IMG/VR virus record: IMGVR_UViG_3300005515_000059
Span: 1 to 23,233 of that record
Direction: 5' to 3' (one strand)
Length of the DNA stretch: 23,233 nucleotides
From: a virus
Part shown: positions 4,608-23,233 of the stretch, piece by piece
How the letters are laid out: each line of letters begins with the position of its first letter
Position numbering within the stretch: the first letter of the stretch is position 1
Program-made: the position numbers and the translations under genes
Notes under the pieces: generated by a model
What the model was told of the DNA's origin: nothing
Database searches by the model: none
The model's input: only the letters and a program-made list of their open reading frames with translations

Positions 4608-4609
4608 TT

Positions 4610-4643
4610 GGCCCTGCCGTTTCCCGCCCCTTCGGCAAGGGCC
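4610..4643 (+). other. Hairpin before the tail tube gene
   Basis: Bases 4610-4619 pair with 4633-4643 as ten pairs with one bulged A (4637) and a 13-base pyrimidine-rich loop. No T run follows. It lies between the tail terminator and tail tube genes, 10 bases before the AGAGGA ribosome binding site. It may protect or separate the tail tube mRNA. Confidence 0.45.
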
Positions 4644-4665
4644 TCCCTGACAAGAGGAAATGACC

Positions 4666-5403: not shown

Positions 5404-5816
5404 TGGCTGGTGAATTCGTCGACCTTTCCGGCCTCGAAGCCCTCGTCCAGTCTCAGGAAGCGGGCATCGAGATCACCATCTTCAATGAGAAGGGCGAGCC
5501 GATCGGTCTCAAGATCGGTGTTGTCGGCCCGGACAGCGAGCGCATGCAGAAGGCCATGCGCGACGTCGCGGCTGAGTTCGCAAAAGCTGCCGCCGAGCGC
5601 GATAACCTCGGCGAGGCAGCCGCAGATGAAGCCGAAGCCCGCCTGATTGCCATCCTCGCAAAGGCAACCACGCATTGGAGCCCGGACCCGAAGATCGGTG
5701 GCCAGGTCGTTCCCTTCTCCGAAGAAAACGTCCGGAACCTCTATACCCGGTTCAAGATCATCCGTGATCAGGTGGAGGCGAAGGCTGCGCGCCGCGCGTC
5801 TTTTACAAAAGGCTGA
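5403..5816 (+). CDS. Tail assembly chaperone, G-like part
   Basis: This 137-residue protein starts at an ATG overlapping the tail tube stop by one base. It begins MAGEFVDLSGLEALVQSQE, contains a beta segment (GIEITIFNEKGEPIGLKIGVVGPDS), and then long helices ending RDQVEAKAARRASFTKG. Position and size match the first of the two tail chaperones made by lambda-like phages (gpG), which coat the tape measure during tail assembly and are absent from the virion. Its last codons contain TTTT and AAAA runs immediately before the stop. The following reading frame (-1) stays open for 118 codons without any ATG, GTG or TTG near its start, so this gene probably also yields a longer G-T fusion. Confidence 0.82.
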   Translation: MAGEFVDLSGLEALVQSQEAGIEITIFNEKGEPIGLKIGVVGPDSERMQKAMRDVAAEFAKAAAERDNLGEAAADEAEARLIAILAKATTHWSPDPKIGGQVVPFSEENVRNLYTRFKIIRDQVEAKAARRASFTKG

Positions 5817-5848
5817 TCGATCGGCTCTGCCGGCTTATCGTCGATCAG
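5801..5848 (+). promoter_or_regulatory. Programmed -1 frameshift site with downstream stem-loop
   Basis: The zero-frame codons TCT TTT ACA AAA GGC TGA contain two places where a tRNA can re-pair one base back: TTTT at 5801-5804 and AAAA at 5807-5810. From 5813, CTGATCGA pairs perfectly with TCGATCAG at 5841-5848 (8 bp), with an inner CGGC/GCCG stem at 5822-5832 around a three-base loop. The zero-frame stop TGA lies within the outer stem. Slippery bases, a stem and a stop just before an uninitiated -1 ORF are the usual parts of tail-chaperone frameshifting. The exact slip codon is not certain, and the spacer of two bases from AAAA to the stem is short. Confidence 0.7.
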
Positions 5849-6166
5849 CACGAGGGTAAAAAGCTCTTCGTTCCGGCGGCCGGCCAGCAGGTCTGGTTCT
5901 GGTTCCAGGAACTCGATGCGCAGCGCACCGGGAACGGCTACGGACCCAACGCCCTTGGCTTCGTCGCAATCGCAGAGTGGGCGAGGCTTCGCGGCCTCGT
6001 CCTCAAGCAATGGCAACTCGACGCCATCCTTGCTCTCGACATCAAGCGCCGCGAAGTCATGGCGCGGAAGGTTGAAGAGCAGGCCGAACCCGAGAAGCAA
6101 CAAGTCTCCGAGCGACCGCTCACCGCGCGCCTGTTCGACGCGCTTTTCCCGTCAAAACGGCGGTAA
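5810..6166 (+). CDS. Tail assembly chaperone, T-like extension made by -1 frameshift
   Basis: This frame is open from 5768 to the TAA at 6164-6166. It lacks any usual start codon until an ATG deep inside (about 6059), so it is most likely translated only as a fusion. Through the AAA at 5808-5810 the ribosome would read 136 residues, then 118 more in the -1 frame, giving about 254 residues. The extension contains VWFWFQELDAQRTG, GPNALGFVAIAEWARLRGL and QLDAILALDIKRREVMARK. This matches the W-x-W-F-x-E-L-D, I-x-A-W-A-x-L and L-x-x-L-D pattern of T-domain tail chaperones in alphaproteobacterial phages. The role is to bind the tape measure and recruit tail tube subunits. Frame, coding quality and family pattern all agree. 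Confidence 0.8.
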   Translation, partial: RLIDRLCRLIVDQHEGKKLFVPAAGQQVWFWFQELDAQRTGNGYGPNALGFVAIAEWARLRGLVLKQWQLDAILALDIKRREVMARKVEEQAEPEKQQVSERPLTARLFDALFPSKRR

Positions 6167-6170
6167 GGTG

Positions 6171-6458
6171 TCAAGCCTTGGCGTCGTAAGCCTTCCGCAT
6201 GTTGTCCATCTCGTAGAGCCATTGCCGGAGTACATCCACCATTCGGCGATGGCCTTCGGCAACCATAGCATCAAGCGTGCCTTCTGGTTGCGGAGCAACA
6301 TCAACCCAGAATGACCCGACGTGATCGTGATCTTCGTCGAAAAAGCCAAATTTTAAACGCACGTCGCTTTCGCCAGTGGTTTTTTCCAGGCCGATGAATT
6401 CCACGAAAGAGTTCGTCAGGCCTTCGGTTGGCACCAAGTGGTCGTCAATTTCTGCCAT
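6171..6458 (-). CDS. Opposite-strand small acidic protein, unknown function
   Basis: I do not recognise this 95-residue protein. The ATG at 6458 is chosen because GGGGCAG lies close upstream. The frame extends to 6497, but that extension (MIHCFRIILWGSL) looks non-native. The protein begins MAEIDDHLVPTEGLTNSFVEFIGLEK, has strand-like VRLKFGFFDEDHDHVGSFWVDV at about residues 33-54, and ends in a helix (HRRMVDVLRQWLYEMDNMRKAYDAK). Codons are coding-like but less GC-ending than in the tail genes. It lies in reverse orientation between the chaperones and the tape measure gene, ending 4 bases after the T-like stop, with its own possible promoter. This is the usual profile of a moron gene. Confidence 0.65.
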   Translation of the reverse strand: MAEIDDHLVPTEGLTNSFVEFIGLEKTTGESDVRLKFGFFDEDHDHVGSFWVDVAPQPEGTLDAMVAEGHRRMVDVLRQWLYEMDNMRKAYDAKA

Positions 6459-6477
6459 TAGGCTGCCCCATAAGATG

Positions 6478-6505
6478 ATCCTAAAGCAATGGATCACACT
6501 TACAA
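6478..6505 (-). promoter_or_regulatory. Possible promoter for the opposite-strand gene
   Basis: On the reverse strand TTGTAA (6500-6505) and TAGGAT (6478-6483) are 16 bases apart, each matching 4 of 6 sigma70 positions, about 20 bases upstream of the ATG at 6458. The match is modest, and the rest of 6459-6574 shows nothing else beyond the GAAGG ribosome binding site of the tape measure gene. Confidence 0.33.
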
Positions 6506-6574
6506 CCGAGAGTCGATCTGCCTTTTTCGTGGCCGTCGATTTTGCGTATTTGACCGTTGTGAAGGTAAGACGCG

Positions 6575-9400: not shown

Positions 9401-9403
9401 TCG

Positions 9404-10138
9404 ATGGCAGTCTACACCGGTCAGCCTACAGTACCGATCATGTATCTCCGCCCGACCAGGGCAAGTTTCGACAATCCCGGGTCGGCTCTCGACGGCGGCG
9501 TCAACGGCCTCGGCGAATCGATCACGATCGAGACCAGCGGCGGTGGTATCGTCGTCGCGACCTATGAGCGGTGCGTCTTGCAGGCCGATGATCCGGAGCG
9601 ACACGAGGTCATCAATTGGCTCGGCGCGCGCGGAAACGGCGGCTATCGCTTTTTCAACGTGCCGATCATCAACGACGGTATCGGCCCGTTCCCGATCATT
9701 GACGGGAAGCGTCGGACGCACATCACTGGCATCCCGCATTCCGACGGGGCTATGTTCTCCGATGGCGCAGGCTACAGCCAGGCGACCGTCTATGGTGAGA
9801 TCACCGAGGCGGCGGCTGTGGGGGCTGGCATCATAAAAATGCGGGTCTATGGCGCGGCTCGGCCGCTTCGCTGGTCTGATTGGTTCTCGATCTACCACCC
9901 GACGAAAGGCTGGCGTGCCTACCGATACTGGGAAGTCATCAGCAAGACGGACGAGGCAAACCCGGTATACACGCTCGCGATCGCGCCACCCTTGCGCGAG
10001 GCGGTCACCGTCGGCACCCACGTCGAGCTCGCTCGGCCGATGTGCGTCATGAAATTCCCGCGCGGCTTCACGCTGCCGTGGGACTACGAGGGCTGGTACC
10101 AGTCGCGGCCGACGCTGCAGTTTGTGGAGGCGTTCTGA
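9404..10138 (+). CDS. Distal tail protein
   Basis: This 244-residue protein starts three bases after the tape measure stop. It is strand-rich with many aromatic residues and no signal or membrane segment. Notable stretches are YERCVLQADDPERHEVINWLGARGNGGYRFF (about residues 54-84) and a C-terminal MCVMKFPRGFTLPWDYEGWYQSRPTLQFVEAF. Position right after the tape measure, followed by a hub-like and a peptidase-like gene, is that of the distal tail protein joining tube and tip (compare the gene-transfer-agent order DUF2460 - DUF2163 - NlpC/P60 - tip). I cannot assign it firmly to one Pfam family. It abuts the next gene with no gap. Confidence 0.65.
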   Translation: MAVYTGQPTVPIMYLRPTRASFDNPGSALDGGVNGLGESITIETSGGGIVVATYERCVLQADDPERHEVINWLGARGNGGYRFFNVPIINDGIGPFPIIDGKRRTHITGIPHSDGAMFSDGAGYSQATVYGEITEAAAVGAGIIKMRVYGAARPLRWSDWFSIYHPTKGWRAYRYWEVISKTDEANPVYTLAIAPPLREAVTVGTHVELARPMCVMKFPRGFTLPWDYEGWYQSRPTLQFVEAF

Positions 10139-10741
10139 ATGGAGTTCGTCCCCGCCAACATCATTGAGGAGATGCGGGGCAGCCACCAACTCGGCATCTT
10201 CCTCCGGATCGATACCGACCCGGGCCTGCATCTCTGGTTTGGGATCAACGATATCCCGGCCAATTTCGACAGCATCGACCCTACGGGAACTGTTTACCTC
10301 GGAGGCGGCCGCCTGATCGGCGTGCCCACGTTAGAGGTCCTGGTCAACGGTACCGCCGATAGCGTCGAGTTCTCATTGTCGGGCATCGATCCGGCGACCT
10401 CGGCGAAGACGATCGAGAGCCTGCCGCCGGTGCGCGGCGCCGATGTTCACATGGGGCTGACGACGCTCGATCGGTATTTCCAGCCGATGAGCGCCATCAT
10501 TCCTATCTGGCACGGAACGGCCTCACATACAGGTGAGATCAGCCCGCCAGTCGAGGAAGGGCAGAACCGAACCGTGACGCTGTCTCTCTCAGTTGTTTCC
10601 GGCGAGGCGACCCGCTCACGGGCCGCGCGTTCTTTGTGGTCGTCACCTCATCAAAAGGCGATCTCGCCGACCGATTTGTTCTGCGACGGGACCGCGCGTC
10701 TCGCCCGCGGCGTCCAGCCCACTTGGACCTTGGGATACTGA
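10139..10741 (+). CDS. Tail hub protein, DUF2163-like
   Basis: This 200-residue protein has its ATG directly after the preceding stop. It contains LHLWFGINDIPANFDSID near residues 30-47, then YLGGGRLIGVPTLEVLVNGTADSVEFSLSGIDP around 54-87, and a C-terminal SRAARSLWSSPHQKAISPTDLFCDGTARLARG with a final tryptophan strand. A reverse-turn-rich strand protein with a 'trivial-geometry' W/R-S-x-x-D-Q-like end in this position resembles the DUF2163 or lambda gpL-like hub family that caps the tail tube. The family call is by resemblance and gene order. Confidence 0.65.
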   Translation: MEFVPANIIEEMRGSHQLGIFLRIDTDPGLHLWFGINDIPANFDSIDPTGTVYLGGGRLIGVPTLEVLVNGTADSVEFSLSGIDPATSAKTIESLPPVRGADVHMGLTTLDRYFQPMSAIIPIWHGTASHTGEISPPVEEGQNRTVTLSLSVVSGEATRSRAARSLWSSPHQKAISPTDLFCDGTARLARGVQPTWTLGY

Positions 10742-10746
10742 CATCG

Positions 10747-11154
10747 ATGGAAATTCACGAGTTTCTGGCCTGCCAGCACCGTTTCAGGTGGGGCGGGGTG
10801 GATGGCGACGACTGCACGACCTTCTGCGCGTCCTGGGTGGCGGCACGGCTCGGCATCGACCCGGCGGAGGAGCTTCGCGGCTCCTACCGGGATGCTGAAA
10901 GCGCGCGTGCCATCATCGACCGGGAAGGCGGGCTTGTCGCTCTCTTCGGGAGCAAGCTTGAGACACTCGGCTTTGTCCGTGTCGACCAGGCGCAGGACGG
11001 CGACATCGGCGTCGTGGTCGCGCCGTCGGGCATTGACGGTTCCCTCGTCGAGGTTGGTGCCGTCGCGTTCGGCCCGCTCTGGGCGACGCTGGCGCCGTCG
11101 GGCGTGGCTGCGAAGAAACTGGAATCAGTCGCTATCTGGAGAATGCCGGCATGA
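10747..11154 (+). CDS. NlpC/P60-like small tail protein (DUF6950 type)
   Basis: This 135-residue protein is read from the ATG at 10747. The longer upstream frame overlaps the hub gene and is not used. Near the N terminus are the patterns F-R-W-G-G-V-D-G-D-D-C-T-T-F (residues 13-26, with Cys23 in the position of the NlpC/P60 nucleophile) and later LRGSYRDAESARAI and DGDIGVVVAPSG. The usual NlpC/P60 histidine after the D-I/H-V-x-I strand is not visible. That agrees with the DUF6950-type family of phage proteins, which may have lost peptidase activity or use another residue. It lies just upstream of the tip protein gene, where cell-wall peptidases are usual, and overlaps it by four bases (ATGA). 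Confidence 0.72.
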   Translation: MEIHEFLACQHRFRWGGVDGDDCTTFCASWVAARLGIDPAEELRGSYRDAESARAIIDREGGLVALFGSKLETLGFVRVDQAQDGDIGVVVAPSGIDGSLVEVGAVAFGPLWATLAPSGVAAKKLESVAIWRMPA

Positions 11155-13730
11155 GAACCCGTTACATCCTCAACGGGCTCGACCTGGCAAACTGCAGTGC
11201 GCTTTACAGCGGTATCGCGTTCGATCCGATCTTCACCCCGTTGTTCACGTCGCTCTTTACCAGTATCGGGTTCACCGCGGGCGCGGCATCCTTCGCGGCT
11301 TCGGTCGCAACGGCGATCACGACGACGGCTCTCACGATCGGACTGCAACTTCTCATGGCTCCGAAGCCTCCAAAGGCCGAGGCGCTCAAGGTGCCGCTTG
11401 CCCAGGCCATCCCTTACCGGATCTGGGGAGTGGGGCGTGTCCGGACTGCCGGCGCCTTCATGCTCTACGAGAGCTCTGGGCCGAACCTTCACGCGGTGCA
11501 GGCTCAGTTCGGGCATCGGATCAAGTCGTTAAACCGATATTGGCTTCATGACGATGAAGTGACACTCGTCGGCGGCGTGGTCCAATCACCGGGCGGAGGG
11601 CGCTACGGTAACGGCAACGTCACGATCGAAAGCCGTCTCGGCTTGCCGACCGAGACGCCCTATGCGGCGGCGGTGGCTGCGTTCTCCGGCGTCGGCCTCT
11701 GGACGAACAACCACCGTGGCGACGGCCAGGCATCGACCTTCATGGTCGCCTCCGCCACCCGCCAGAAGGACCAGAACAAGGTTTTCCCGTACGGACACCC
11801 GCAATTGTCCGTGGAGGCAGATGCTGCGCTTTGCTGGGACTTCCGCGATCCCGCTCAGGATCCTGACGACCCGGCCACCTGGCAGTGGACGCGCAACAGC
11901 GCCGTCATCATCGCATGGCACCTCTGCTTCAACGAGTTCGGCTATGGCCTCGACTATAGCAAGGCCCTGTTGCCCGTCATCGACCTTTGGAAGGAAGAGG
12001 CCGACATCTGCGACGAGGACGTTCCTCTCGCCGGCGGCGGTACCGAGAAGAGGTACCAGTGCAACGGCGTCGACACGACCGAAAACGGGCCGAAATCCGG
12101 CCTGAATGCGATGCTGGCCACCTGCGACGGTCACCTCGTCGCCCGCGGCGATGGCGCACGCATCCTGACTGTCGGTAAGTTCCGCGAAAGCCGCTGCGCA
12201 ACCCTGACCGATGGAGACATCGTCGGCTACAACAAGCAGAACGACGTGCTGTTTGAGGACGAGATCAACCGCCTCATTCCGAAGTTCACCTATCCGGCAA
12301 CTGATTACTCCACCTCGGACACCGACTATTTCGAGGACGTCGATGCTCAACTGAAAGCGGGGCGTGTGCTGGCCGACGAGGCCGAATATCCATGGGTGCA
12401 TCAGTGGCGCCAGGCGCGCCGGCTGGGCAAGCGTGATTGGCTCCGGCTTCGTGAGAAGGTGAGAGGCTCAATCGACGTTCGCCTCTCTGGCATCAATGCT
12501 GTCTATGCCCGCTGGGTTCGGATGGAGACACCTAATCAGCTGCCGTCGTTGAACGGCAAGCTGGTCGAGAACCGCCGATCTGTTCTCGCTCTGTCGAAGG
12601 CGGCCGGCTTCACGATGGACATTGTGGGGCATCCCGACAACATCGACGCCTGGACACCGGCCACAGACGAGGGGACACAGCCTCCCGTCCCGTCGGCGCC
12701 GAACGCGGCCGGGATCCCCACGCCGGTCATCAACCTGGTGCAGGCGAAGCCGAAGAACGGAACGGTCTACATCCGTGTCGTCATCATCGACCCGGAAAAT
12801 GCGAGCCTGACGCCGCACGTGCGGTATCGTGTCAAAGACATCGACGGCCTAGGGACGCATGGTGCGTGGGTTGAGCAGGCCTTTCCGGATGCTGATCCCT
12901 CCGGAGGCTTCGTCAACCTGAATACCAACGTAGTGCCATCTGACCAGGTGCTTGAAGTCCAGGCGGCATTCACGACGGCAGGCGGTGCCTATTCGGACTG
13001 GTCGGCGATCGAGGAAGTCGTTTCTACGGCTGACCCTGTCGCGCCGATCGCACTGACGTCGTTCACGGTGACCGACGGAACACCACACCTCGGCCGCGTC
13101 TCGTTCTCGTTGGCAACCGGAAACGATTCGCACGTGAAGACGGTGCAGCTTTATCGCGTCGCGACCGGGGCTGCCTTCGATCCCAATACGGCAACAACAG
13201 TCGGCCCGCCAATCGAGGTGGTTCGATCGACCAGCTACTCCTACACCCACGGCGACCCGACCAGAACTAACCTCGTATCCAATTCGGGGTTTGACACCGA
13301 CACGGCCTGGACGAAGGGCAGCAACTGGACGATCTCCAGTTGCAAGGGAAACAAGGCTGTCTCCGCGTCCTCTTCCTACCTCACGCAGTTGTTCAGTGTG
13401 ACGGCAGGCAAGGTTTACCGGTCGATCTTCACGGTATCCGGCCGTACCGCCGGCAACTTCACCGCGGCACTGATCGGCGGCAGCAACGTGCTCGGCGCGA
13501 CACAGGCGGCAAACGGGACGTTCTTGTTCTCTCTGACCGCTGTGTCTGGGAACAACGGCGGCGGCATTCGTGCTTCCAATGACGCCGTTGGCAGTGTCGA
13601 CGACTGCTACATCTTCGAAGAAACACCAACCTGCGCGCCTCAGGGCGTCTGGGACTACTACGCCGTTCCGTACAACGGGTCCGGCGTGCCGGGGCCGCAA
13701 TCCGGGCCACTCACCGTCACGGTCGTCTAA
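11151..13730 (+). CDS. Tail tip attachment protein (J-like) with carbohydrate-binding-like end
   Basis: This 859-residue protein starts in an ATGA overlap. Residues about 28-70 form a long hydrophobic stretch (FTSLFTSIGFTAGAASFAASVATAITTTALTIGL), as often seen in J-like proteins. The body to about residue 510 (IPYRIWGVGRVRTAGAFMLYES, GYGLDYSKALLPVIDLWKEEADICDE, LIPKFTYPATDYSTSDTDYF) resembles the phage tip family with baseplate-hub-like folds. It is followed by fibronectin-III-like strands (about 515-700) and a module at about 707-823 (NLVSNSGFDTDTAWTKGSNW) that has the look of a jelly-roll carbohydrate-binding domain. The role is to bind the host surface and trigger DNA ejection. A hairpin follows the gene. 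Confidence 0.85.
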   Translation: MRTRYILNGLDLANCSALYSGIAFDPIFTPLFTSLFTSIGFTAGAASFAASVATAITTTALTIGLQLLMAPKPPKAEALKVPLAQAIPYRIWGVGRVRTAGAFMLYESSGPNLHAVQAQFGHRIKSLNRYWLHDDEVTLVGGVVQSPGGGRYGNGNVTIESRLGLPTETPYAAAVAAFSGVGLWTNNHRGDGQASTFMVASATRQKDQNKVFPYGHPQLSVEADAALCWDFRDPAQDPDDPATWQWTRNSAVIIAWHLCFNEFGYGLDYSKALLPVIDLWKEEADICDEDVPLAGGGTEKRYQCNGVDTTENGPKSGLNAMLATCDGHLVARGDGARILTVGKFRESRCATLTDGDIVGYNKQNDVLFEDEINRLIPKFTYPATDYSTSDTDYFEDVDAQLKAGRVLADEAEYPWVHQWRQARRLGKRDWLRLREKVRGSIDVRLSGINAVYARWVRMETPNQLPSLNGKLVENRRSVLALSKAAGFTMDIVGHPDNIDAWTPATDEGTQPPVPSAPNAAGIPTPVINLVQAKPKNGTVYIRVVIIDPENASLTPHVRYRVKDIDGLGTHGAWVEQAFPDADPSGGFVNLNTNVVPSDQVLEVQAAFTTAGGAYSDWSAIEEVVSTADPVAPIALTSFTVTDGTPHLGRVSFSLATGNDSHVKTVQLYRVATGAAFDPNTATTVGPPIEVVRSTSYSYTHGDPTRTNLVSNSGFDTDTAWTKGSNWTISSCKGNKAVSASSSYLTQLFSVTAGKVYRSIFTVSGRTAGNFTAALIGGSNVLGATQAANGTFLFSLTAVSGNNGGGIRASNDAVGSVDDCYIFEETPTCAPQGVWDYYAVPYNGSGVPGPQSGPLTVTVV

Positions 13731-13755
13731 CCACAACAAACAATCGGGATTCTAA

Positions 13756-13781
13756 GCTCTGCCGGGTCTTCCTGGCGGAGC
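13756..13781 (+). other. Hairpin between tip and spike genes
   Basis: Bases 13756-13765 pair with 13772-13781 (10 pairs, two G-U) with a 6-base loop. It stands in the 72-base gap before the spike gene, ten bases before its GGAG ribosome binding site. No T run follows, so it is more likely an mRNA-processing or attenuating hairpin than a full terminator. Confidence 0.45.
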
Positions 13782-13802
13782 GCTTCCCTATGGAGTGCTT
13801 TA

Positions 13803-16406
13803 ATGGGTGAAATTATGAACGCCTTCAACACGGTCTATGCAGACGGCCCGACGTCGAGCCCCACTCAGCCCGACAAGGCAGCCATCCGCCCGATCGGCGG
13901 CGTCATCGAAGGCGCGCTCGACGATCTTGCGACTAACGTGCAGGCGCAACTCGACGACTTCGAGGTCGACGCCGATTCCGTCACCAATGGGACGTGGACA
14001 GAGCTTTCTGGCGTGACCGGAACCCGCAACGGGCAGAAGGGCAGCGTTACGAACGACGCCGGCACGCATACTGATCCAGTGACCGGCGCGACGGTTTCCA
14101 ACCGGGGCACCTATAGCTGGTCGGTTTCGCCTGCAGGCTGGAAGTGGGTGGGCGCTGACGACTACGGCAGCATCATCGGTCTCGGCTCGGAAATCGGACT
14201 CAGCGATAGCTATTCGATTGCCGTAATGAACTGGGATTCCTCCATCCTTACGGACGGCTTCGGCAACACGATCGGCCTGTCATTTGCCGTCGGGCAGAAC
14301 GGTGTTGATGGCTCGAACATCGCCAACATCCTGATCAGCGACACGTATGTGGCGCCGAAGAAGGGCGCCGGTTCCAAGGTTCGGACTGCCTTTTACCTCG
14401 ACATTTCAGCATCGTTCGCTCGCGTGACGACGCCTTTCATGTTCGTTACCAGGAACGGCGCGCAAGTGACTCTGACCTTGGCCGGAAGCGTCTCCGATGC
14501 GACCCAGTTCCGGGTCGTCAACAACGTTCTGATCGGCCAGCGTCGGTTCTACGAGCTTGAATGGATGCTAGACGGTACCGAGACTGGGTTGAGCGCGCAG
14601 GTTCGTTTCACCGGTTCGGACGCCGTCGCGCCGGAGAGCGTGCAGTTCTCTGGCGTCATCGCGACCACGATCTCGACCGCTGGCAGTTCGGATTTCAGCA
14701 TATTTGACCTTGCACTCGCGGCCGCCAACAAGACGACGCGAAAGCTGGCCGTAGCGGAAGCTATCGCCAAGATCCTCGGCACCATCCCCTACATTATCGA
14801 AAAGACCTTGGCCGTTTCGGGTGGCGACTACTCTACGGTTCAGACGGCCAACAGTGGAGTTGGCAGCGGCACAGTGGCTGAGCCGAAGGCTGTCCGGCTC
14901 AAGCCCGGTGTCTATCAGAACCTGGCGCTCACCACGACGCAGGCATGGCGGGCCTATCTCGATTGGATCGGCCCCGGCGGCGATCGGGCAGTGATCGAGC
15001 ACATGAACCCGGATGACACGGCTGTCGCGAACACGGTCAGTGATCAGCCGATCATCTCCTGGTACACAGCGGGCTACCGTGATTTCAGCGGCCGGGTGAA
15101 AAATGCTCGCTACGTCATCCACTCCGACAGTGATGGAACCCGCGTCGACCAAAAGTTCACCTACGAAAATCTCCACCTCGAGCATTTGGGGAACCAGGGC
15201 GCGATAGACTACCAGACCAGCCTTGGTGGCGGCGGCAACCCCTCGGGCGTGTGGGCTCAGGACAATTGCCGTCCCATCGGAATTGGCACGTCATCCGGCA
15301 ACGAATTTGATATCCGCGGCTGCACCCTGCACGGGCCACGCAGCGTCATCGGCATCCACGACAACAAGGATTTTGCGAAGCCGAACCGCGTGCTGATCGA
15401 GGATTGCGACCTCATCTGCACGGAAGGGCACGACACGGCACGAGCCCTTATCCTTGGCGCTTTCGGGAGCGGCCAGGTCTCAACGATTGAGGTTGTGGGT
15501 TGCCGCTCGAATGGCGACGTCGTTCTGTACGGTATGCCTTGGCTGTCGGCCGCGACCGATAACCAGCCCGCCGACCCTTTCACGCAGTTGGTGGTCTCCG
15601 GTCACGGTAACTCGCCAATGGTATCGTCGATCCTTATCAACAGCACGCCCCAGCGCGCTCTGAAAATCGCTTCTGCTGATACGACCGCGGCGTCCTCGGT
15701 CACGATCAGCGGCACGCAAGCCTTGCTCGACGCTCTGTTCGGCACGATCTACTCGCGCAAGGGCGGGGGCGGTCTGCCGGGGCAAACATGGGGATACAAC
15801 AACATCGCTGAGATGGGTGTCGGTGCTGGCGCCGCAACCTTCATCACCGCCTTGGGCAAGCGCTTGGGGAACCGGACTGGCAGCCCGTGGGCGCTCTCGG
15901 TTTCCTTCCAGGGCGGGCCCGCCATCAACATAACGTTCAGCACTGACTACACGAGCGCTTCGAATGCATCGATCTTGTCTACGATCAACGCGGCGCTCGG
16001 TGCGGCCGGCGTTGCATCTGAATACAATATCGCCGCTCGACATCGTCCGCGGTTTGCCGACGAGGAGCGCTCGATGTCAGTCACCGCGGCCAACTCGATA
16101 CCGATCTGGTCGTGGGTCGCCTACGACGGCTCGCGCAACAAGGGCAGATTGATGACGAGCGCCGATGCGCTCACGGTTTCCGCTGGCGCCGCTTATGGCG
16201 ATGACATCGTCACCGGCGGAGCGGGTAGGGTGAAGACGAGGGGGCTTTTCGGAGTTGCCGATGTCATCATCAACGGCGCGCCGACGATCAACTTCGGCGA
16301 TCTGCTCGAAATCGACGCATCCAACCCTGGGCAGTTCGTGAAAAACAACGCATCTACGCGTGCTGTGCTGCGAAGCGTTAGAAGCGGCGTATTTGAGAGG
16401 GCATGA
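13803..16406 (+). CDS. Tail spike or fibre with beta-helix domain
   Basis: This 867-residue protein is read from the ATG at 13803, seven bases after GGAG. An in-frame ATG at 13818 is the alternative. The start (MNAFNTVYADGPTSSPTQPDKAAIRPIGGVIEGALDDL) is typical of the anchor region of Rhizobiales phage fibres. Residues about 118-315 look like a beta-sandwich. From about 336 (LAVSGGDYSTVQTA), repeated short strands with GTSSGNEFDIRGCTLHG, IEDCDLICTEG and IEVVGCRSNG indicate a right-handed parallel beta-helix to about 580. These enzymes or binders often attack surface polysaccharide. The last 110 residues have a compact strand-rich domain (GAAYGDDIVTGGAGRVKTRGLFGVADVIING). No catalytic residues can be named. 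It ends 42 bases from the opposing gene. Confidence 0.85.
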   Translation: MGEIMNAFNTVYADGPTSSPTQPDKAAIRPIGGVIEGALDDLATNVQAQLDDFEVDADSVTNGTWTELSGVTGTRNGQKGSVTNDAGTHTDPVTGATVSNRGTYSWSVSPAGWKWVGADDYGSIIGLGSEIGLSDSYSIAVMNWDSSILTDGFGNTIGLSFAVGQNGVDGSNIANILISDTYVAPKKGAGSKVRTAFYLDISASFARVTTPFMFVTRNGAQVTLTLAGSVSDATQFRVVNNVLIGQRRFYELEWMLDGTETGLSAQVRFTGSDAVAPESVQFSGVIATTISTAGSSDFSIFDLALAAANKTTRKLAVAEAIAKILGTIPYIIEKTLAVSGGDYSTVQTANSGVGSGTVAEPKAVRLKPGVYQNLALTTTQAWRAYLDWIGPGGDRAVIEHMNPDDTAVANTVSDQPIISWYTAGYRDFSGRVKNARYVIHSDSDGTRVDQKFTYENLHLEHLGNQGAIDYQTSLGGGGNPSGVWAQDNCRPIGIGTSSGNEFDIRGCTLHGPRSVIGIHDNKDFAKPNRVLIEDCDLICTEGHDTARALILGAFGSGQVSTIEVVGCRSNGDVVLYGMPWLSAATDNQPADPFTQLVVSGHGNSPMVSSILINSTPQRALKIASADTTAASSVTISGTQALLDALFGTIYSRKGGGGLPGQTWGYNNIAEMGVGAGAATFITALGKRLGNRTGSPWALSVSFQGGPAINITFSTDYTSASNASILSTINAALGAAGVASEYNIAARHRPRFADEERSMSVTAANSIPIWSWVAYDGSRNKGRLMTSADALTVSAGAAYGDDIVTGGAGRVKTRGLFGVADVIINGAPTINFGDLLEIDASNPGQFVKNNASTRAVLRSVRSGVFERA

Positions 16407-16412
16407 TATTGG

Positions 16413-16439
16413 CTGGCGCCGGTTGTGAGACGGCGCCAG
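16413..16439. terminator. Hairpin between convergent spike and glycosyltransferase genes
   Basis: CTGGCGCCG at 16413-16421 is the exact reverse complement of CGGCGCCAG at 16431-16439, with a 9-base loop. It fills most of the 42-base gap between two converging genes. It may serve as a terminator for both, although no long T run is present on either side. Confidence 0.6.
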
Positions 16440-16448
16440 ATTATCGGG

Positions 16449-19415
16449 TTAGATCGCGAAGAGACTGGCGCGCATGTTGCTGTACGCGTTGGTGACGTTG
16501 CGATCTTCGTAGCAGTACCGTTCAGCAGCGGTTCGGGCGTCAGCGCCGGTTTCCAGGTCACCTATCAGTCTGCTCAGTTCGCTCGCCCATGCTTCGACGG
16601 TGTTATCGACGAGGACGCCGCCACCTGAGCGGCTCACGGTCTGGCTATACGACGGACCCTTGGAGACCACCGGGAGAATGCCGAGGGCACCATAGTCGAG
16701 GAGTTTGAGGTCAGATTTCGCGTCATTGAACCGGTTGCTTTTGAGCGGGGCGAGGCCGAGATCAAACGGGCCTTGTTCTCGGAACCATCGAACGAAGTGT
16801 GGATACGACTGGGCCGTGCGCGGTGGCGGCAGGACTTTGATCCAGTCTCGTTTCGGTGGGTTCCTGACGGCGCCGATGATGGTCAGCTTGAACTGGTGAT
16901 TTTGTGCCACCTGGTCCAGCGCCTCGGCGATCATCTCGAAATCGGCGTCATGTGTGGCCGTACCAGCATAAACGAGGGTCGGAACCTCGTTCTTCTTCGC
17001 CGGAGGCCTACGGTAGTCGCGCCACAGCCTGGGGTCGATCGCATTTTCCATGACGATCGGCTTCTTCGCCAGATGCGAGTATGCATCCCGCAGAACGTCC
17101 GTGGAGACCCAGTTCGCGTCGGCATTGTCTAGCAAGAGGTCGAGGCCGGCGATGCGGGGCCTATAGAGATCGAACTCTGCATGTTCCTCGTCGAGGTAGC
17201 AGAAGGCGTCGTCATTGTCGGTGATGAGCTTGCTTCCGCGGGTACGGACCTGCGCCAGCAATGCTTGTGCCTCCTCGAGGGTATCGAAAGCTGTCCGCTG
17301 AACGATGGTAACGTCTGCCCGCCTGCTATCAACAGCGGATCGAGCCGGGACGAGTTGGAAATCGACTTCGCCGAAAGCCAAATCGGTTGTGAGGGGGCAC
17401 AGAAGGCGGATGAACGCGCTGCTCTGCGGGAATTCGCGATCCTGCCGAACCACCGCATTGACGGTCATCTTTTTGCCGCGCGGGACGAAAGGAGAGGCCA
17501 TAGGCGCGTGTTCGATGGCCAAGAGGTTGTAGATGTCGGACAGAATTGTCTTTGCGCGGTGGTCGAAGCTATGCGCCAGTGAGACATCCTGGCTCAGAGC
17601 GAGATGATCGACGCGATGACCGTTCTTTACAGCCTTGGCGAGGTCCTCTTGGCTGCTGATCTGTTTGACCGCGTCGCCGAAGACATAGCTGATGGCCGGC
17701 ACTCTATCGGAAACGACGATACCGCCGGCCGACAGGACATCGAAAATCCGGTTGGAAATAAAGCCGAAGTCACGCATGGACGGCCAATGGTCGTTCAGCA
17801 CCATTCTTGCAGAATGATAGTGGCCACCGAGTTCCTTGTTCGGGACGTTGGTGCCCTTGATGTAAGCCGAAGGAATGAACTGTTCCCAACGCGTGCCGTA
17901 GACCGAAAGGTCGACCTTTTCGGCGACCGCCCAACGGACGATATCGCGATACTCGTTTCGAGAGTTGCCGACGAAGAGGATATCGGCCGGAACTTCGGGA
18001 GCCTTGCGGGTCGGGTTGAACCGATGGACGTCGGTGGCTTGCAGGAGGGCCTTGGCTTTGGCGTTGCTGGTGGCCTTTAGGAAGGCCGCATAGCTGAGCG
18101 AGGCGATATAGGCGACGTCAAAGGATTCGTATTCCTCAAACGAAATCTGATCCGGATGGCTGATGTTCCAGAGGATGTTGATATGCCCGGACAGCGGCTT
18201 GTACTGAGTGAGCCCGCGAATGGCTATGACCACGTCGTCTTCTTCAGGCCGGGGTCTGTCCCATTTGCCATGGAAGTCGATGCGTACTTTGTGCCCCATT
18301 CTGGTCAATGAACCGGCCAACGAATCCGCGTAGTGGAAGTCGCCCCATTCCTGGCGCTTTTCGTAAGGTGCCGGGACCTTGATCGCAAAGTTGAGAGATA
18401 TGTTCTCCGCAATCTTCGACCGGTCACCGTCAGCCTTCGCCTTCGCGACAACCACGCGGCGGAATGCACGGAACTCCTTTACGGAGATCCGGTTCTTGTC
18501 AGTTTCCGTGTTCGTATATTCGCAGCCAACGAACGGGGCGTAGCCGATCTTTGACGCCTTCATGGTCTGGCGGATGATCAGATCCCAATCGACCATTCGA
18601 CGCAACTTCTCATCGAAGCCGCCGTGCATCACATAGAGATGCCGAGTGTGGCAATACACGTTGAGATCGATGTAGTTGCCTTTGAGCAGTTTCTCGCCAT
18701 CGAAAGGCTGCCCGCGGATAACGCGGTCGGTATCATTCACCACCTCGTCCTGAGCGTACGCGACGTCAGATTTGGTTTCGGTCATGAACCCCACCATCTT
18801 ACCGAGGTAGTGTGGGAACCAAACGTTATCCGAATCCAGATAGGCTATGATGGGCGATCTAGCAGCTTTGAGGCCGACGTTTCGCGCGGCACTGACGCCG
18901 GTGTGTGGTCCTTTCAGCAGATGAACTCGCCGGTCCGAGAGGTACTTCTGGACAACCTCTGCCGTCTTGTCGGTACTACCGTCGTCAACGATGAGAAGCT
19001 CCCAATTCCTATAGGTTTGGGCGACCACCGATTCAATCGACCGGGCGATAGTCGCCTCGCGGTTGTAGGCGGGCATGATGATGCTTACGCGGGTTTGCTG
19101 GTCTGCCTCAGCCCGCTTCCTCATTTCACGCAGTTTGAGGATGTATTGGGAGGAAAGCTGAACCTTGCGCTTTTCCCGGCGACCGTGCCGCTCGTAGTGC
19201 ACGAGCGGGTTCTTGCCCTTATGAGCGATGTCTGGGTTGTCCTTGAGATAGGCGGTCGTGGAGAACTCGAAAGACGGATCGCGAGACAGCTTCCAGCCCA
19301 TCCAAAGATAGTGCTCGATTGGGTCCATCCCAATCATGTCCACGTCGCGGTATTGAGTGCGATAAAATTCAGAATCAAAAAGAGGAGAACGTTTTAACAA
19401 CTCCCGGTCGTTCAT
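16449..19415 (-). CDS. Three-domain glycosyltransferase (GT2 plus two GT-B domains)
   Basis: This 988-residue protein is read from the ATG at 19415. The upstream extension starts with TTG and has no native look. Residues 13-48 and 51-83 are two copies of a short repeat (F-x4-Y ... D-P/N-P-x2-H-Y-x3-G). Residues about 110-330 are a GT2 family domain: SIIMPAYNREATIARSIESV, IVDDGS at 142-147, LDSDN at 193-197 as the metal-binding DxD-type motif, and DWDL at 276-279. Residues about 345-632 look like a GT-B (CgeB-like/GT4) domain ending NRIFDVLSAGGIVVSDR. Residues about 650-985 form a second GT-B domain (DLKLLDYGALGILPVVSKG at 902-920). No signal peptide or membrane segment is seen, so it should act on cytosolic polysaccharide precursors or lipid-linked acceptors. 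It is the last gene of the cassette. Confidence 0.85.
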   Translation of the reverse strand: MNDRELLKRSPLFDSEFYRTQYRDVDMIGMDPIEHYLWMGWKLSRDPSFEFSTTAYLKDNPDIAHKGKNPLVHYERHGRREKRKVQLSSQYILKLREMRKRAEADQQTRVSIIMPAYNREATIARSIESVVAQTYRNWELLIVDDGSTDKTAEVVQKYLSDRRVHLLKGPHTGVSAARNVGLKAARSPIIAYLDSDNVWFPHYLGKMVGFMTETKSDVAYAQDEVVNDTDRVIRGQPFDGEKLLKGNYIDLNVYCHTRHLYVMHGGFDEKLRRMVDWDLIIRQTMKASKIGYAPFVGCEYTNTETDKNRISVKEFRAFRRVVVAKAKADGDRSKIAENISLNFAIKVPAPYEKRQEWGDFHYADSLAGSLTRMGHKVRIDFHGKWDRPRPEEDDVVIAIRGLTQYKPLSGHINILWNISHPDQISFEEYESFDVAYIASLSYAAFLKATSNAKAKALLQATDVHRFNPTRKAPEVPADILFVGNSRNEYRDIVRWAVAEKVDLSVYGTRWEQFIPSAYIKGTNVPNKELGGHYHSARMVLNDHWPSMRDFGFISNRIFDVLSAGGIVVSDRVPAISYVFGDAVKQISSQEDLAKAVKNGHRVDHLALSQDVSLAHSFDHRAKTILSDIYNLLAIEHAPMASPFVPRGKKMTVNAVVRQDREFPQSSAFIRLLCPLTTDLAFGEVDFQLVPARSAVDSRRADVTIVQRTAFDTLEEAQALLAQVRTRGSKLITDNDDAFCYLDEEHAEFDLYRPRIAGLDLLLDNADANWVSTDVLRDAYSHLAKKPIVMENAIDPRLWRDYRRPPAKKNEVPTLVYAGTATHDADFEMIAEALDQVAQNHQFKLTIIGAVRNPPKRDWIKVLPPPRTAQSYPHFVRWFREQGPFDLGLAPLKSNRFNDAKSDLKLLDYGALGILPVVSKGPSYSQTVSRSGGGVLVDNTVEAWASELSRLIGDLETGADARTAAERYCYEDRNVTNAYSNMRASLFAI

Positions 19416-19528
19416 TATTTCAATGCCCCGGTTGAAAAAGAATAGTGGCGTATTCGGTTGTGCCCTAGCAAAGGGGAGGGTTGTGCACAAATGAAATATT
19501 GCCTTCTGCCGGCCTCGTGCGACCAGCA

Positions 19529-19557
19529 GATATAGTTGTGCAACTTGCAGTAGACAA
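19529..19557 (-). promoter_or_regulatory. Possible promoter for the three-domain glycosyltransferase
   Basis: On the reverse strand TTGTCT (19552-19557) and TATATC (19529-19534) are 17 bases apart, each matching 4 of 6 sigma70 positions. They lie about 115 bases upstream of the start at 19415. The leader also holds the perfect 10-base palindrome TTGTGCACAA (19481-19490). The 175-base gap 19416-19590 has no coding sequence that I can support. Confidence 0.33.
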
Positions 19558-19590
19558 TTTTGCTAATGATTTCAGGGGCCTGCAGTCGCG

Positions 19591-20547
19591 TTATTGGCTA
19601 TAGAGGGCAAGCATTCTTTGTACGTTCGCAAAGATCGCTTCGTTGCGCACGTGGACGAGATCGTCCTCCCAAGCAACGTTCGGGTGAGAAAGTGTAACGC
19701 TCTCAAAGCTTGGATAATAGTTTACCCAGTCTAGCGCGGAAACAGCTTTATGTGCTGCGACGCGCAACACAGCCTTCGAATATGTATTGGCGACTATCAC
19801 ATCGTCTGCGGTGAAGGTTCGCTGAAGAGGTACAGGGGAGACGGTCAAAAGAACTCTCTGCTCCGGATGCCCGTTGGCCTTCATAATCCGTAGGGTTTCT
19901 AGAACAGTATCGATCGTATTCTCTGGGGAAAGAACTTCGAATTGGAAACGGCCCGAGTTATTTCTTACCATCTTACTCAGAGGCGTTTCGTTCAAGTATC
20001 TCCCCGAATCACTATCAAACCAGGCCTCAATCAAGCCCAACGTCACCACGATGACCCTGCAGTCCTTGATAGCCGAACGATAAAGTTCCCTTACCTGGGC
20101 TCTCCGCTCGATCCCTCGCTCGAGACTTACAGCGACGTTCGTGTGAAGCTGGGTATCAATGTACAAGCCCTCCGACTCCGGCACGAGGAATTCTTCTCCG
20201 GTCGTGTTGCCGAATGCGAACTGGACCTCGTTCAACATCGAATGAGGGGTGTACTTGTTGAGCAGGCCGGACGTCATTTTCGTGCCGAGCCAGAGTTCCT
20301 CTTTCGGAGCGCTAAATTCGAGCGCTGGTACCTCGTAGCCGTTTTGCTTGAGGGCAACTTCGATATTGCGAGCGAAGCACGATCCAATGGTGAAGATAGA
20401 CTCGCCTGGGACCAGAGTGAAGTTCGAGGTCGTGACCGGCGTACAGATCTCGCTTAGCCGCGAACCTTCCTGTCGAGAGGGCCATTTCGCGCCGGCATTC
20501 GATGCTGAAACTTTGAATGCCGCCTCTGCGGTCATGCGATCTGTCAT
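19591..20547 (-). CDS. GSCFA family protein (SGNH-like)
   Basis: This 318-residue protein is read from the ATG at 20547, which has AGGGGA five bases upstream. The frame stays open to 20640, but that part lacks a good site. The signature FTIGSCFARNI at residues 52-62 names the GSCFA family, with Ser56 in the position of the SGNH block I nucleophile. Near the C terminus D-D-L-V-H places Asp296 and His299 in the SGNH block V spacing (DxxH). Family members are found in polysaccharide gene clusters, and esterase or acyltransferase activity is suspected but not shown here. No signal peptide is visible, so it should be cytosolic. It follows the DUF616 gene after 89 bases. Confidence 0.85.
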   Translation of the reverse strand: MTDRMTAEAAFKVSASNAGAKWPSRQEGSRLSEICTPVTTSNFTLVPGESIFTIGSCFARNIEVALKQNGYEVPALEFSAPKEELWLGTKMTSGLLNKYTPHSMLNEVQFAFGNTTGEEFLVPESEGLYIDTQLHTNVAVSLERGIERRAQVRELYRSAIKDCRVIVVTLGLIEAWFDSDSGRYLNETPLSKMVRNNSGRFQFEVLSPENTIDTVLETLRIMKANGHPEQRVLLTVSPVPLQRTFTADDVIVANTYSKAVLRVAAHKAVSALDWVNYYPSFESVTLSHPNVAWEDDLVHVRNEAIFANVQRMLALYSQ

Positions 20548-20567
20548 TTTCGTTCCCCTGAATTGCA

Positions 20568-20580
20568 ACGTCTCAGACGT
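20568..20580. repeat. Perfect palindrome upstream of the GSCFA gene
   Basis: ACGTCT and AGACGT flank a single central base, giving a perfect 13-base palindrome 20 bases upstream of the GSCFA start codon. It could be an operator or part of a short RNA hairpin, or it could be chance. Confidence 0.3.
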
Positions 20581-20636
20581 GGGAATTGTCTTATTGATCG
20601 ACCTTGTTCTCGGCAACCGATTCCTGTGCGGCAGGT

Positions 20637-21458
20637 TCATCGATACTTCCGACCTTCGGCATGGCCGAAGTGCAGGTAGTGTTTCCTGGGATCGATGTCC
20701 AACTGCCTTACGTCCTCGTTGAGCGACAGATAGCGCTCGTTGTCGAAGTCGCGGGGCACTCGAACCGGGTTGGTGAGGGCCGGCCAGTCGAAGATTGAAT
20801 TATTGTGCACATCCTCGTCTACTGTCGTGAATGCCACACCTGTGGCCCATGCCGCGAAGTTCCAGCCGAGTTGATCCCGCTTGGAATAGAGAAGCAACTG
20901 CGAATGCCACTCCAGCATGGCTTTCGCGACACTTTCATTCGCATGGGTCCTGAGAAGAAACCCGGCGGCGTTCAACCCATTCTTCTCCGGATATCCTGAC
21001 TTTTTATAGACCTCCATTTGGCGCTGAACGATGGCGGGATCATCGAGTTGATACCGAGAGACGGCAACAGCCTCCTCGTAGACACATTCTCTGCGGGGGT
21101 GCTTAAACATCACGAGGCTGTCGTCGGCGTACCGCTCGAAAATGGATGAGGGCTCGACCTTCAGCTTAACAGTGTTGTCGACGTAAATGCTCCTCTCGTA
21201 TCCGGCCAGGTGGAGGTGCGGCAGATGCTTATGTCTCTTCGAGAACCTCGCCGGATCCATAGTTGGATGCTGAACCAGGATCGGTTGCCAGTTTTTGGGG
21301 GCCAGCTCGGCGTCGTCGGTAAAGCAGATATAGTCGACGTTCCGGTCTCCGTAGTCTCGGTCCTCGAAATGCTCCGAGTGGCCGAACATACAGGTGTATA
21401 CAACGTTTCGGGTCCTTTTCTGCTTTGGCCCGAAAAGACGCCTCAATTTTTCCTTCAT
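20637..21458 (-). CDS. DUF616/TOD1-MUCI70-like glycosyltransferase
   Basis: This 273-residue protein starts at the ATG at 21458. It has the pattern VVYTCMFGHSEHF (19-31), VDYICFTDD (41-49), RFSKRHKHLPHLHL (71-84) and SIYVDNTVKL (90-99, with the D94 position as the DxD-like centre), then KNGLNAAGFLLRTH (159-172). This is the TOD1/MUCI70 glycosyltransferase-like family, formerly DUF616, seen in bacterial polysaccharide loci. Residues 238-270 add one copy of the FD-x3-Y ... DP-x2-HY repeat found twice in the neighbouring three-domain enzyme. The tail residues (EGRKYR) complete that unit. It has no signal peptide. The donor and acceptor sugars cannot be predicted. Confidence 0.82.
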   Translation of the reverse strand: MKEKLRRLFGPKQKRTRNVVYTCMFGHSEHFEDRDYGDRNVDYICFTDDAELAPKNWQPILVQHPTMDPARFSKRHKHLPHLHLAGYERSIYVDNTVKLKVEPSSIFERYADDSLVMFKHPRRECVYEEAVAVSRYQLDDPAIVQRQMEVYKKSGYPEKNGLNAAGFLLRTHANESVAKAMLEWHSQLLLYSKRDQLGWNFAAWATGVAFTTVDEDVHNNSIFDWPALTNPVRVPRDFDNERYLSLNEDVRQLDIDPRKHYLHFGHAEGRKYR

Positions 21459-21535
21459 CGATGCTCAGCCCCGATTATTGCCCCGATGGTGAGTATTTGA
21501 TCGCCGCCGTTGCCGCAACTCAATTGCGCTATGCG

Positions 21536-22933
21536 CTACGGCACGAAGATAAGTGGTGAGGGAGGAGGGTTGCAGGCCGTCGGCTGCGAGGAGGTGCATT
21601 CCCGCGCCTTGTCGCGATTTATTCCTTGCGAGAAGTAGACAATTGAGCCGGCCAGCTTCCCCGCAACTCCATCAACCCTGACGCTGCGAGAGTTCTTGCG
21701 AACTTCGACCAGGCCACTGGGCGGTGATACGTTCAGTGGGCGCGCTGCTATAGGGTTGGCTTGTGCCTCCGGACGGCTGACAACATTGAGTGTATCCGTG
21801 TCGAAGAAGATGCGCTTTCGCGCTTCTCCTGGAAAAGCAATGTCTATGCTTCCCAATGTACCGCGGCTCACATCCGGGTCACCGAAGGCCGGGAGATTTG
21901 GCACTGTCCCGCCACCGGCAATGACCGTTTGTTGCTCCGCCGTCGCGACAATGGAGCGATGCCAACCATCACCAGACGGAGACGCCAGAAAGAGGCTGTT
22001 TTTCCCGTCGGGGCCGTACCGAGTATAGGCAATGAGAGGCTTGCCGGCGGTTGAGATGCTCACCCGAGCGAGATTGACCAGCCCTTGGCCCTCACCGGTA
22101 ACTTCGATCACGTCGCTATTGCCAGGATCCAGCGGGGGCGTAATTGGTCGCCCTTCGTGGTCCTCCCAGTGAACGAAATCATGCGTGCGAGCGTAGGTGA
22201 TTGCATAATTGCTGGCGACGTCAGGGGTGCGACGCCAGATGATAGCGATGTGCACATAGCCGTCCTGGAATACCCGAAACACCGTCGGATAGGCATTTGT
22301 CGGCGAACCCTCCCAGGTCGAGGAAAATACTGGGCCTTCCAGCGCTCGTTTCCACGTCTGACCGTCACGCACATTGACGAACCAATCGCCGTTTCCGCTC
22401 ACGCCGCTTCGATATGCGAAATACAGCTTACCGTCCGGATCGTTGATGAAGTTGGGATACGTGGCCTTGTCCTCATCGCGGCCAACCATCGGGGACAGGG
22501 ACATGTCGGATATGCTGTCCGAACTGGCGGCAGCACCATAAACGAGAGGGCTCGCGTGCATGTTGCCAGCGACTTGAAGCTGTCCATTGCCGTCAAAAGC
22601 GAGAGCCACACTGTTGTGGCTATCCCAGCCTCCGAATTGGGAGGGAAGCCGGGAGCGGCACACAACGCCGGAAGCTGGATCGAGTTCAGCAACTGTTAGC
22701 CATCGCTCTGCGTCGTAGTACCCGAAGTAGATCATCTTGCCGCGGGCAATTGCGTCAAACGTGACGGTGGCGCCCGACCACGCATTGTCGATCTCTATGC
22801 CATGACGGCCGCCTCCCACCGGAACGAGCGTCCCTTGTTGGCATGTTGAGGCGATGGCTGGTGCGCTGGCCAGCAGTTGCAGCAGCATGGTTCCAACGAG
22901 AAGCCAGGGGCTTTGCGGCAGTACTTTGGTCAT
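21536..22933 (-). CDS. Secreted BNR-repeat protein (BNR_4 family)
   Basis: This 465-residue protein is read from the ATG at 22933, where a clear Sec signal peptide begins (MTKVLPQSPW, a hydrophobic core, then ASAPAIA before STC, cleavage after about residue 28). The upstream frame to 23077 only adds a hydrophilic extension from a GTG. The mature part has the BNR_4 signature GGWDSHNSVALAFDGNG (101-117) and VAGNMHASPLVY (121-132), with His106 and His126 conserved. It is followed by sheet repeats such as YPNFINDPDGKLYFAYRSG, YPTVFRVFQDGYVHIAIIW and KPLIAYTRYGPDGKN. Related proteins include polysaccharide lyases and other beta-propeller enzymes, so it may cut or bind surface polysaccharide outside the cytoplasm. 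It leads the minus-strand cassette. Confidence 0.8.
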   Translation of the reverse strand: MTKVLPQSPWLLVGTMLLQLLASAPAIASTCQQGTLVPVGGGRHGIEIDNAWSGATVTFDAIARGKMIYFGYYDAERWLTVAELDPASGVVCRSRLPSQFGGWDSHNSVALAFDGNGQLQVAGNMHASPLVYGAAASSDSISDMSLSPMVGRDEDKATYPNFINDPDGKLYFAYRSGVSGNGDWFVNVRDGQTWKRALEGPVFSSTWEGSPTNAYPTVFRVFQDGYVHIAIIWRRTPDVASNYAITYARTHDFVHWEDHEGRPITPPLDPGNSDVIEVTGEGQGLVNLARVSISTAGKPLIAYTRYGPDGKNSLFLASPSGDGWHRSIVATAEQQTVIAGGGTVPNLPAFGDPDVSRGTLGSIDIAFPGEARKRIFFDTDTLNVVSRPEAQANPIAARPLNVSPPSGLVEVRKNSRSVRVDGVAGKLAGSIVYFSQGINRDKARECTSSQPTACNPPPSPLIFVP

Positions 22934-23089
22934 TTTTGAAGCCGGAATTGTATGTGTTGAATCGCTATCACTTCGACAGAAACAAGATGGCTGGAAGTAG
23001 GCGCCTTCCGTAAATTTTGCGCGATCGATGCCCGTCAGAGCCGACCGCTCGATAGATACTACGTTCACTAACCACACAAGGACATTGCT
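22934..23089. other. Divergent gap between BNR and amidase genes
   Basis: This 156-base gap must hold the 5' ends of both the leftward cassette and the rightward lysis gene. On the reverse strand a TACAAT hexamer (22947-22952) lies 13 bases before the BNR start, but no good -35 fits it. On the forward strand AAGGA (23078-23082) is the amidase ribosome binding site. I see no convincing promoter or operator otherwise. Confidence 0.4.
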
Positions 23090-23233
23090 ATGAAATACCG
23101 CCTACCGCTGGAATGGCTCCAGCCGGTGAAGATGTCGCGTATCATCGCGCATTGGAGTGCCGGCGCCTATCGAGCATCCGAGCTCGACAAGGAGCACTAT
23201 CACTTCATCGTCGAGGGTTCAGGAACCGTGGTC
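23090..23233 (+). CDS. Endolysin-type N-acetylmuramoyl-L-alanine amidase, 3' end cut off
   Basis: The window ends inside this gene, and 48 residues are visible. It starts at the ATG at 23090 with AAGGA seven bases upstream. The sequence MSRIIAHWSAGAYRASELDK holds the H-W-x-A-G motif (His21, a likely zinc ligand), followed by EHYHFIVEGSG, as in amidase_2 enzymes such as phage endolysins. It would cut the bond between muramic acid and the stem peptide and release progeny at lysis. Finding an endolysin on this side of the cassette shows that phage genes resume after 22933. Confidence 0.8.
   Translation, partial: MKYRLPLEWLQPVKMSRIIAHWSAGAYRASELDKEHYHFIVEGSGTVV

Follow-up and report, generated by a model that had tools for sequence, protein, structure and literature searches.

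Why would a phage carry four genes that read against its own tail operon, between a tail spike and an endolysin? The question is raised by a record of the IMG/VR collection (IMGVR_UViG_3300005515_000059), a linear fragment whose entire 23,233 bp make up the window analysed here. A sequence-only reading had named the four leftward genes as encoding a secreted BNR protein, a DUF616 glycosyltransferase, a GSCFA protein and a three-domain glycosyltransferase (GT3), and ORF calls with Pfam support all four names (BNR_4, TOD1/MUCI70, GSCFA and a three-domain glycosyltransferase). Likewise, the cassette does lie opposite in strand, with a spike-like gene on one side and the beginning of an amidase endolysin gene on the other, as that reading described.

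Positions 1-16406 form a rightward tail module that includes a tape measure gene (6575-9400, plus strand; phrog_19914 over its full length, 1358 bits) and a J-like tail fibre gene (11151-13730, plus strand; phrog_5616). The tail fibre shares 64% identity with its counterpart in Sinorhizobium phage phiLM21 and 53-78% with those of 80 IMG/VR relatives. The tail module has the gene order of KJ743987, to which it is collinear and homologous, so the window belongs to a phiLM21-like phage of rhizobia, the root-nodule bacteria. We take the phage to be temperate from its relatives, since this fragmentary record includes no integrase. GC content drops from 0.622 in 1-16406 to 0.560 in the cassette, giving the latter a foreign composition.

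The left border is the gene of the spike-like receptor-binding protein (13803..16406, plus strand), in which a conserved N-terminal adapter (phrog_32336, residues 3-117, 1.4e-29) is joined to a unique C-terminus. The N-terminus is 30-58% identical to the post-tail-fibre gene of many relatives. For the C-terminus, IMG/VR held no relative except one 47-residue match, databases returned no useful match, and a single-sequence structure prediction reached a pLDDT of 35 and was not used. The name "tail spike" rests on the conserved adapter and on position, and is used below in this putative sense. The convergent junction between spike and cassette (16407..16448) contains a perfect 9-bp GC-rich inverted repeat at about 16414-16440, with a predicted RNA folding energy of -24.2 kcal/mol (z -4.2). 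This hairpin, spotted by eye and supported by folding, is a candidate two-way terminator. At the other end, a divergent intergenic region (22934..23090) presumably holds the cassette promoter; a consensus scan of the window for promoters and terminators gave nothing above chance. The right border is the amidase endolysin gene (23091..23233, plus strand), whose first 48 codons are present before the contig end cuts it. These 48 residues are 94% identical to an intact Amidase_2/PHROG endolysin at the same place in a related phage (L064), which rules out a host-chromosome gene as the right border and confirms the earlier assignment of the amidase to the phage.

The first cassette protein is an exported BNR_4 beta-propeller (21536..22933, minus strand; PF15892, 4.5e-51), a predicted uronate lyase of the PL42/GH145-like kind. 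Its start is most likely the ATG at 22933, which gives 465 aa with a signal peptide as in a chromosomal homologue, and not the GTG at 23077. The signal peptide is visible in the sequence and common to this homologue, which is 35% identical and occurs in 1 of 298 related genomes; a pattern search of IMG/VR found no relative. The best PDB matches are the GH145 propeller BT3686 (6e-28) and the L-rhamnose-alpha-1,4-D-glucuronate lyase FoRham1 (1.4e-6). Residues that matter in FoRham1 are D83, H85, H105, Y150, R166, Y202 and R220 (PMC10951650, PMC8377490). The window protein has the complete catalytic set (D104, H106, H126, Y159, R175, Y215 and R234), and thereby the His-His-Asp motif, neutralising Arg and Tyr residues of PL42/GH145. 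N287 is also kept. Because the rhamnose-contacting Q276 of FoRham1 is replaced by L288, and because the score for the NCBIfam BT3686 equivalog, 126 bits, falls short of its cut-off of 700, we claim no exact specificity. From its signal peptide and full catalytic set, this predicted lyase would act at the host surface and not on the virion.

At the other end of the cassette, GT3 (16449..19418, minus strand) has 989 aa when read from the ATG at 19418 (989-1013 aa over the possible starts). It combines a GT2 domain (PF00535, 9e-37) with the GT1/GT4-type domains Glyco_trans_1_2 (PF13524) and Glyco_trans_1_4 (PF13692). PDB sequence matches are to polysaccharide glycosyltransferases such as chondroitin synthase, and GT3 resembles enzymes that polymerise or extend polysaccharides. 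Next to it lies the gene of the GSCFA protein (19591..20640, minus strand; PF08885, 1.4e-44), a predicted carbohydrate O-acyltransferase or esterase that may start at an internal ATG near 20547. The Gly-Ser-Cys-Phe-Ala motif is invariant in three GSCFA sequences. A structural model (pLDDT 66) has an SGNH-like fold, with Z scores of 10-12 to SGNH carbohydrate esterases and to the O-acetyltransferase PatB, and a Foldseek search with this model is weak by itself (best E 8e-4). Pfam clan, motifs and VIA-align taken together allow a placement in the SGNH clan with moderate confidence. According to a 2022 review, the GSCFA family of this clan has no characterised member (PMC9487903). Chromosomal GSCFA relatives reach at most 41% identity, and a few (L093, L094) adjoin genes that look by eye like polysaccharide genes.

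The fourth protein is TOD1/MUCI70, glycosyltransferase-like (20637..21458, minus strand), with matches to PF04765 (4.6e-13) and to the glycosyltransferase family phrog_26101 (1.4e-15); TOD1_MUCI70 PF04765 is the family formerly named DUF616. Two further matches (L109, L110) at 20% identity were disregarded. A short module, Y-x-x-x-N-x-D-V ... D-P-x-x-H-Y-x-x-x-G, is found both at the TOD1 C-terminus (window 20637-20730, minus strand) and at the GT3 N-terminus (about 19180-19380, minus strand). It recurs in a GT3 homologue (L086 9926-13063) and in two RgpF-type slot proteins (L066 14580-15641, L079 14547-15608), and was absent from all other ORFs of the loci scanned. Perhaps surface-glycan enzymes use it to dock to a substrate or a complex. 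PADLOC defence models matched none of the four cassette proteins.

We examined what relatives carry at the same place by calling and clustering ORFs 3' of the tail fibre in 75 readable relatives. The interval between spike and endolysin, hereafter the slot, is hypervariable and low in GC. Both borders are present in 62 records, where the slot measures 67-7258 bp with a median of 3339, so that some slots are almost empty (67 bp in L034). All 40 slots longer than 2 kb have a GC content below that of the tail module, by 6.4 points on average. Of the slot ORFs with 200 aa or more, 71 are leftward and 46 rightward; leftward orientation is a tendency and no rule. Across the 75 relatives the slot holds extra genes inside the phage genome that virion and lysis can do without and that differ from relative to relative, as would be expected of lysogenic-conversion cargo (morons).

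Surface-glycan genes occupy the slot in at least 36 of the 75 relatives by our own tally (Pfam on representatives), and about half of the relatives have a slot without a recognisable glycan gene. Capsule-type glycosyltransferases among the Pfam families are GT8 with Capsule_synth and GT2 with Capsule_synth and TPR. Those connected with sialic acid are CST-I sialyltransferase with GT8, GT29 and alpha-2,8-polysialyltransferase. Further families are ABC-2 membrane protein, RgpF, GT2 with CDP-glycerol phosphotransferase, WcbI, DUF6270, heparinase-like, FkbM methyltransferases, Acyl_transf_3, sulfotransferase and radical SAM, and polysaccharide exporters and membrane O-acyltransferases also occur. 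One slot protein (L062 13988-15946, plus strand) is a fusion of WcbI and GSCFA, which ties GSCFA to capsule-type acetylation enzymes. Two slots without a glycan gene encode an AAA ATPase resembling AriA/PtuA-type defence proteins (L046 14656-16608, minus strand) and a PDC-S45 candidate defence protein (L054 14982-15863, minus strand). Swapping also affects the right border itself: in the loci L002-L081 and L083-L086 its endolysin is of several types with no relation to each other, among them amidase, GH108 and chitinase-like.

The sequence-only reading had suggested that the four genes could be a new type of conversion island. As a recurring island they do not hold up: the set is unique, one filling of a slot whose content differs in nearly every phage. 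No chromosomal locus with the four genes together was found either, and the scan for GT3 yielded prophage only. The sole IMG/VR relative of the GSCFA protein (66% identity; L082) comes from a phage with another architecture, where its gene is the only one between those of a beta-helix spike and a GH108 endolysin and runs counter to both. For GT3, the one relative that a pattern scan over 84,980 species genomes brought up, 54% identical over its full length, belongs to a Mesorhizobium prophage (L086; L111 is identical to it, and the two were counted once) with just 24% identity in the tail fibre. There it lies between spike and GH108 endolysin, on the phage strand, adjoining a methyltransferase and a sulfotransferase. 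A search with GT3 at E<=1e-80 in 395 genomes of the same family gave no match beyond this prophage. The nearest relatives of the cassette genes thus sit at the same place in other phages, and what recurs is the position, not the gene set.

The spike of this Mesorhizobium prophage (L086 6291-9359, plus strand), which adjoins the GT3 homologue, itself contains a distant BNR_4 domain at residues 651-912 (6e-21), in which a D-H...H...R pattern is seen. BLAST and HMM comparison gave no significant direct match between this domain and the window BNR_4 protein; they have the Pfam family in common. The arrangement suggests, without proof, that GT3 and BNR_4 share one polysaccharide.

Other phages also have cargo at this position. 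In phiLM21 a leftward FkbM methyltransferase gene lies between the second tail-fibre gene and a chitinase-type endolysin, in AP-16-3 a leftward FkbM gene directly follows the second tail gene, and in phi3LM21 an FkbM gene occupies the slot position, but on the plus strand. In Rhizobium phage RHph_N28_2 the leftward gene there encodes 693 aa and has no Pfam match, and Agrobacterium phage Rivra has leftward genes for a GT99-type glycosyltransferase and a methyltransferase between tail and lysozyme. In phage 16-3 the immX region directly follows the second tail-fibre gene, which is the slot position (L119 6307-6741, equal to 16-3 18306-18740), and its record labels immXl as an acetyltransferase. 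The immX region is cited as one of superinfection immunity (PMC10460002).

Glycan-related families are concentrated in the slot. In 50 non-redundant whole records (2.22 Mb), where the slot makes up 6.8% of the DNA, 23 of 25 matches fell inside it (FkbM 13/13, GT2 8/10, Acyl_transf_3 2/2), as against 0 of 12 for the control DNA methyltransferase PF01555. Fisher's test gives p 5e-8, a value inflated by kinship of the records, yet the matched genes span many unrelated sequence groups. Four of the 50 records lack the right border and their slot was left open rightward, which affects one counted match (GT2, L041). FkbM methyltransferases can have other substrates, which counts against reading them as conversion genes.

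Spike and cargo are exchanged separately. Eight relatives whose spike C-termini are 82-99% identical have at least four different cargoes. Conversely, a cargo of methyltransferase, FkbM and GT2 genes that is 92-99% identical stands beside unrelated spikes (L006 versus L055/L070), as does an FkbM gene that is 97% identical (L004 versus L044). This reassortment rules out a fixed partnership of spike and cargo. The cargo is therefore no lock matched to the key of its own spike, and does not by itself imply that phages of the same kind are excluded.

We propose, at a probability of about 0.72, that the cassette is cargo of a lysogenic-conversion slot between spike and endolysin in phiLM21-like and some other rhizobial phages. 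A conversion island that alters the receptor had been suggested before; the surface-glycan cargo found slot-wide in relatives strengthens this idea, whereas the four-gene set as a recurrent island does not survive. Comparison supports the reading as surface-altering conversion cargo well. In the lysogen, the cargo would be transcribed leftward from a promoter of its own. GT3, TOD1 and the SGNH enzyme would add or acylate sugars on an envelope polysaccharide of the host, and the exported propeller lyase would cut a uronate linkage at the cell surface. A lysogen displaying the altered polysaccharide would be a poor target of adsorption for phages that use the old one, and may also meet plants and soil differently. 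Resident viruses thus probably repaint their host and exclude rival phages through the slot. The defence-like slot proteins (L046, L054) and the position of immX in 16-3 fit an exclusion role. For surface modification, defence-like genes and immX, we infer protection of the lysogen from other phages as the common denominator. It is conceivable, if rather unlikely, that the Sec-exported lyase, being of the virion-depolymerase kind, strips the receptor of its own lysogen while glycosyltransferases and SGNH enzyme repaint it, the whole being an exclusion module in a swap slot of several rhizobial lineages.

The cargo could instead serve the host's niche, altering contact of the lysogen with plant or soil by taking rhamnose caps off plant arabinogalactan or by glycans that affect symbiosis, with exclusion secondary. 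The lyase is related to enzymes that act on gum arabic, a plant arabinogalactan (PMC8377490), the hosts of the relatives are plant-associated, and BNR_4 has its one chromosomal homologue among the 298 related genomes. However, relatives' slots hold envelope-synthesis and defence-like genes and not sets for degrading plant glycans, and the rhamnose-contacting glutamine of FoRham1 is a leucine in BNR_4; we consider this improbable. Slightly less probable still is that the glycosyltransferases and the SGNH enzyme decorate the spike or other structural proteins at assembly, a modification of the virion that the neighbouring spike and the cytoplasmic nature of glycosyltransferase and FkbM enzymes would suit. 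Against it, most slot genes run counter to the late operon and cargo does not follow the spike; the exported BNR_4 protein and the exporters, membrane O-acyltransferases and capsule enzymes of relatives are predicted to act on the envelope, not on virions. That the gap between late tail genes and lysis gene simply tolerates random inserts, the cassette being decaying passenger DNA, would suit the high turnover, low GC, lack of obligatory content and near-empty slots, but is very improbable given the concentration of glycan families (23/25 in 6.8% of the DNA versus 0/12), the full-length GT3 (54%) and the GSCFA protein (66%) at the same position in other phages, and the intact catalytic residues of the lyase.

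The proposed conversion slot resembles gtrABC of P22/epsilon34-like phages, where prophage genes that are mobile between phage types alter surface polysaccharide and tailspikes bind polysaccharide (PMC2629481); in enterobacteria such mobile conversion loci are well known (PMC2629481). gtrABC is a fixed trio making one modification with a flippase, GtrA, and a bactoprenol transferase, GtrB (PMC2629481), whereas the slot lies before the endolysin, lacks a flippase in the window, where it includes an exported lyase, and holds different enzymes in almost all phages. That the cassette is not gtrABC had been recognised from the sequence and holds: Pfam, PHROGs and NCBIfam detect no GtrA-type flippase among the four proteins and no gtrABC set. 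Nor is a GtrB-type bactoprenol glucosyltransferase among them: GT3, with its 989 aa and three domains, matches GtrB-like PHROGs through its GT2 core only (1.8e-14). The Ant moron region of P22 likewise consists of hypervariable, independently expressed late-region inserts beside a spike, but it lies 5' of the tailspike gene, on the other side, and carries antirepressor and regulatory genes, not glycan genes (PMC2629481). An Acinetobacter prophage pairs a tailspike depolymerase with a capsule-changing Wzy gene proposed to protect the lysogen from related phages; it has one polymerase gene and another host, and the accessible part of that report describes no hypervariable slot (PMC13228068). BT3686 and FoRham1 (GH145/PL42), homologous to the window BNR_4 protein and sharing its complete lyase catalytic set, differ in being secreted gum arabic enzymes that are not phage-borne (PMC8377490, PMC10951650).

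The FkbM genes of phiLM21, phi3LM21 and AP-16-3 belong to the same phages or relatives and share the post-tail-fibre position, but were published as isolated auxiliary genes without a slot or a link to surface glycans (PMC5537653, PMC10460002). FkbM and one LPS glycosyltransferase are mentioned singly for these phages (PMC5537653, PMC12429752, PMC10460002). The literature searched, with most subscription journals outside its scope, holds single genes only and no prior description of the slot. Surface conversion as a kind is already known; new are a cargo slot spanning several lineages and an exported lyase with an intact predicted active site.

A 2025 survey could not determine functions for over half of the ORFs in phiLM21-like prophages. 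Part of this "dark matter" cargo, carried by the prophages most common in Sinorhizobium, now becomes readable as one slot filled largely with envelope-glycan genes. Prophages are predicted to make nitrogen-fixing symbionts more varied in their surface polysaccharides, which matter for susceptibility to phages, for nodulation and for how well inoculants survive, and the slot offers a simple test bed for whether phages carry such genes to exclude competitors.
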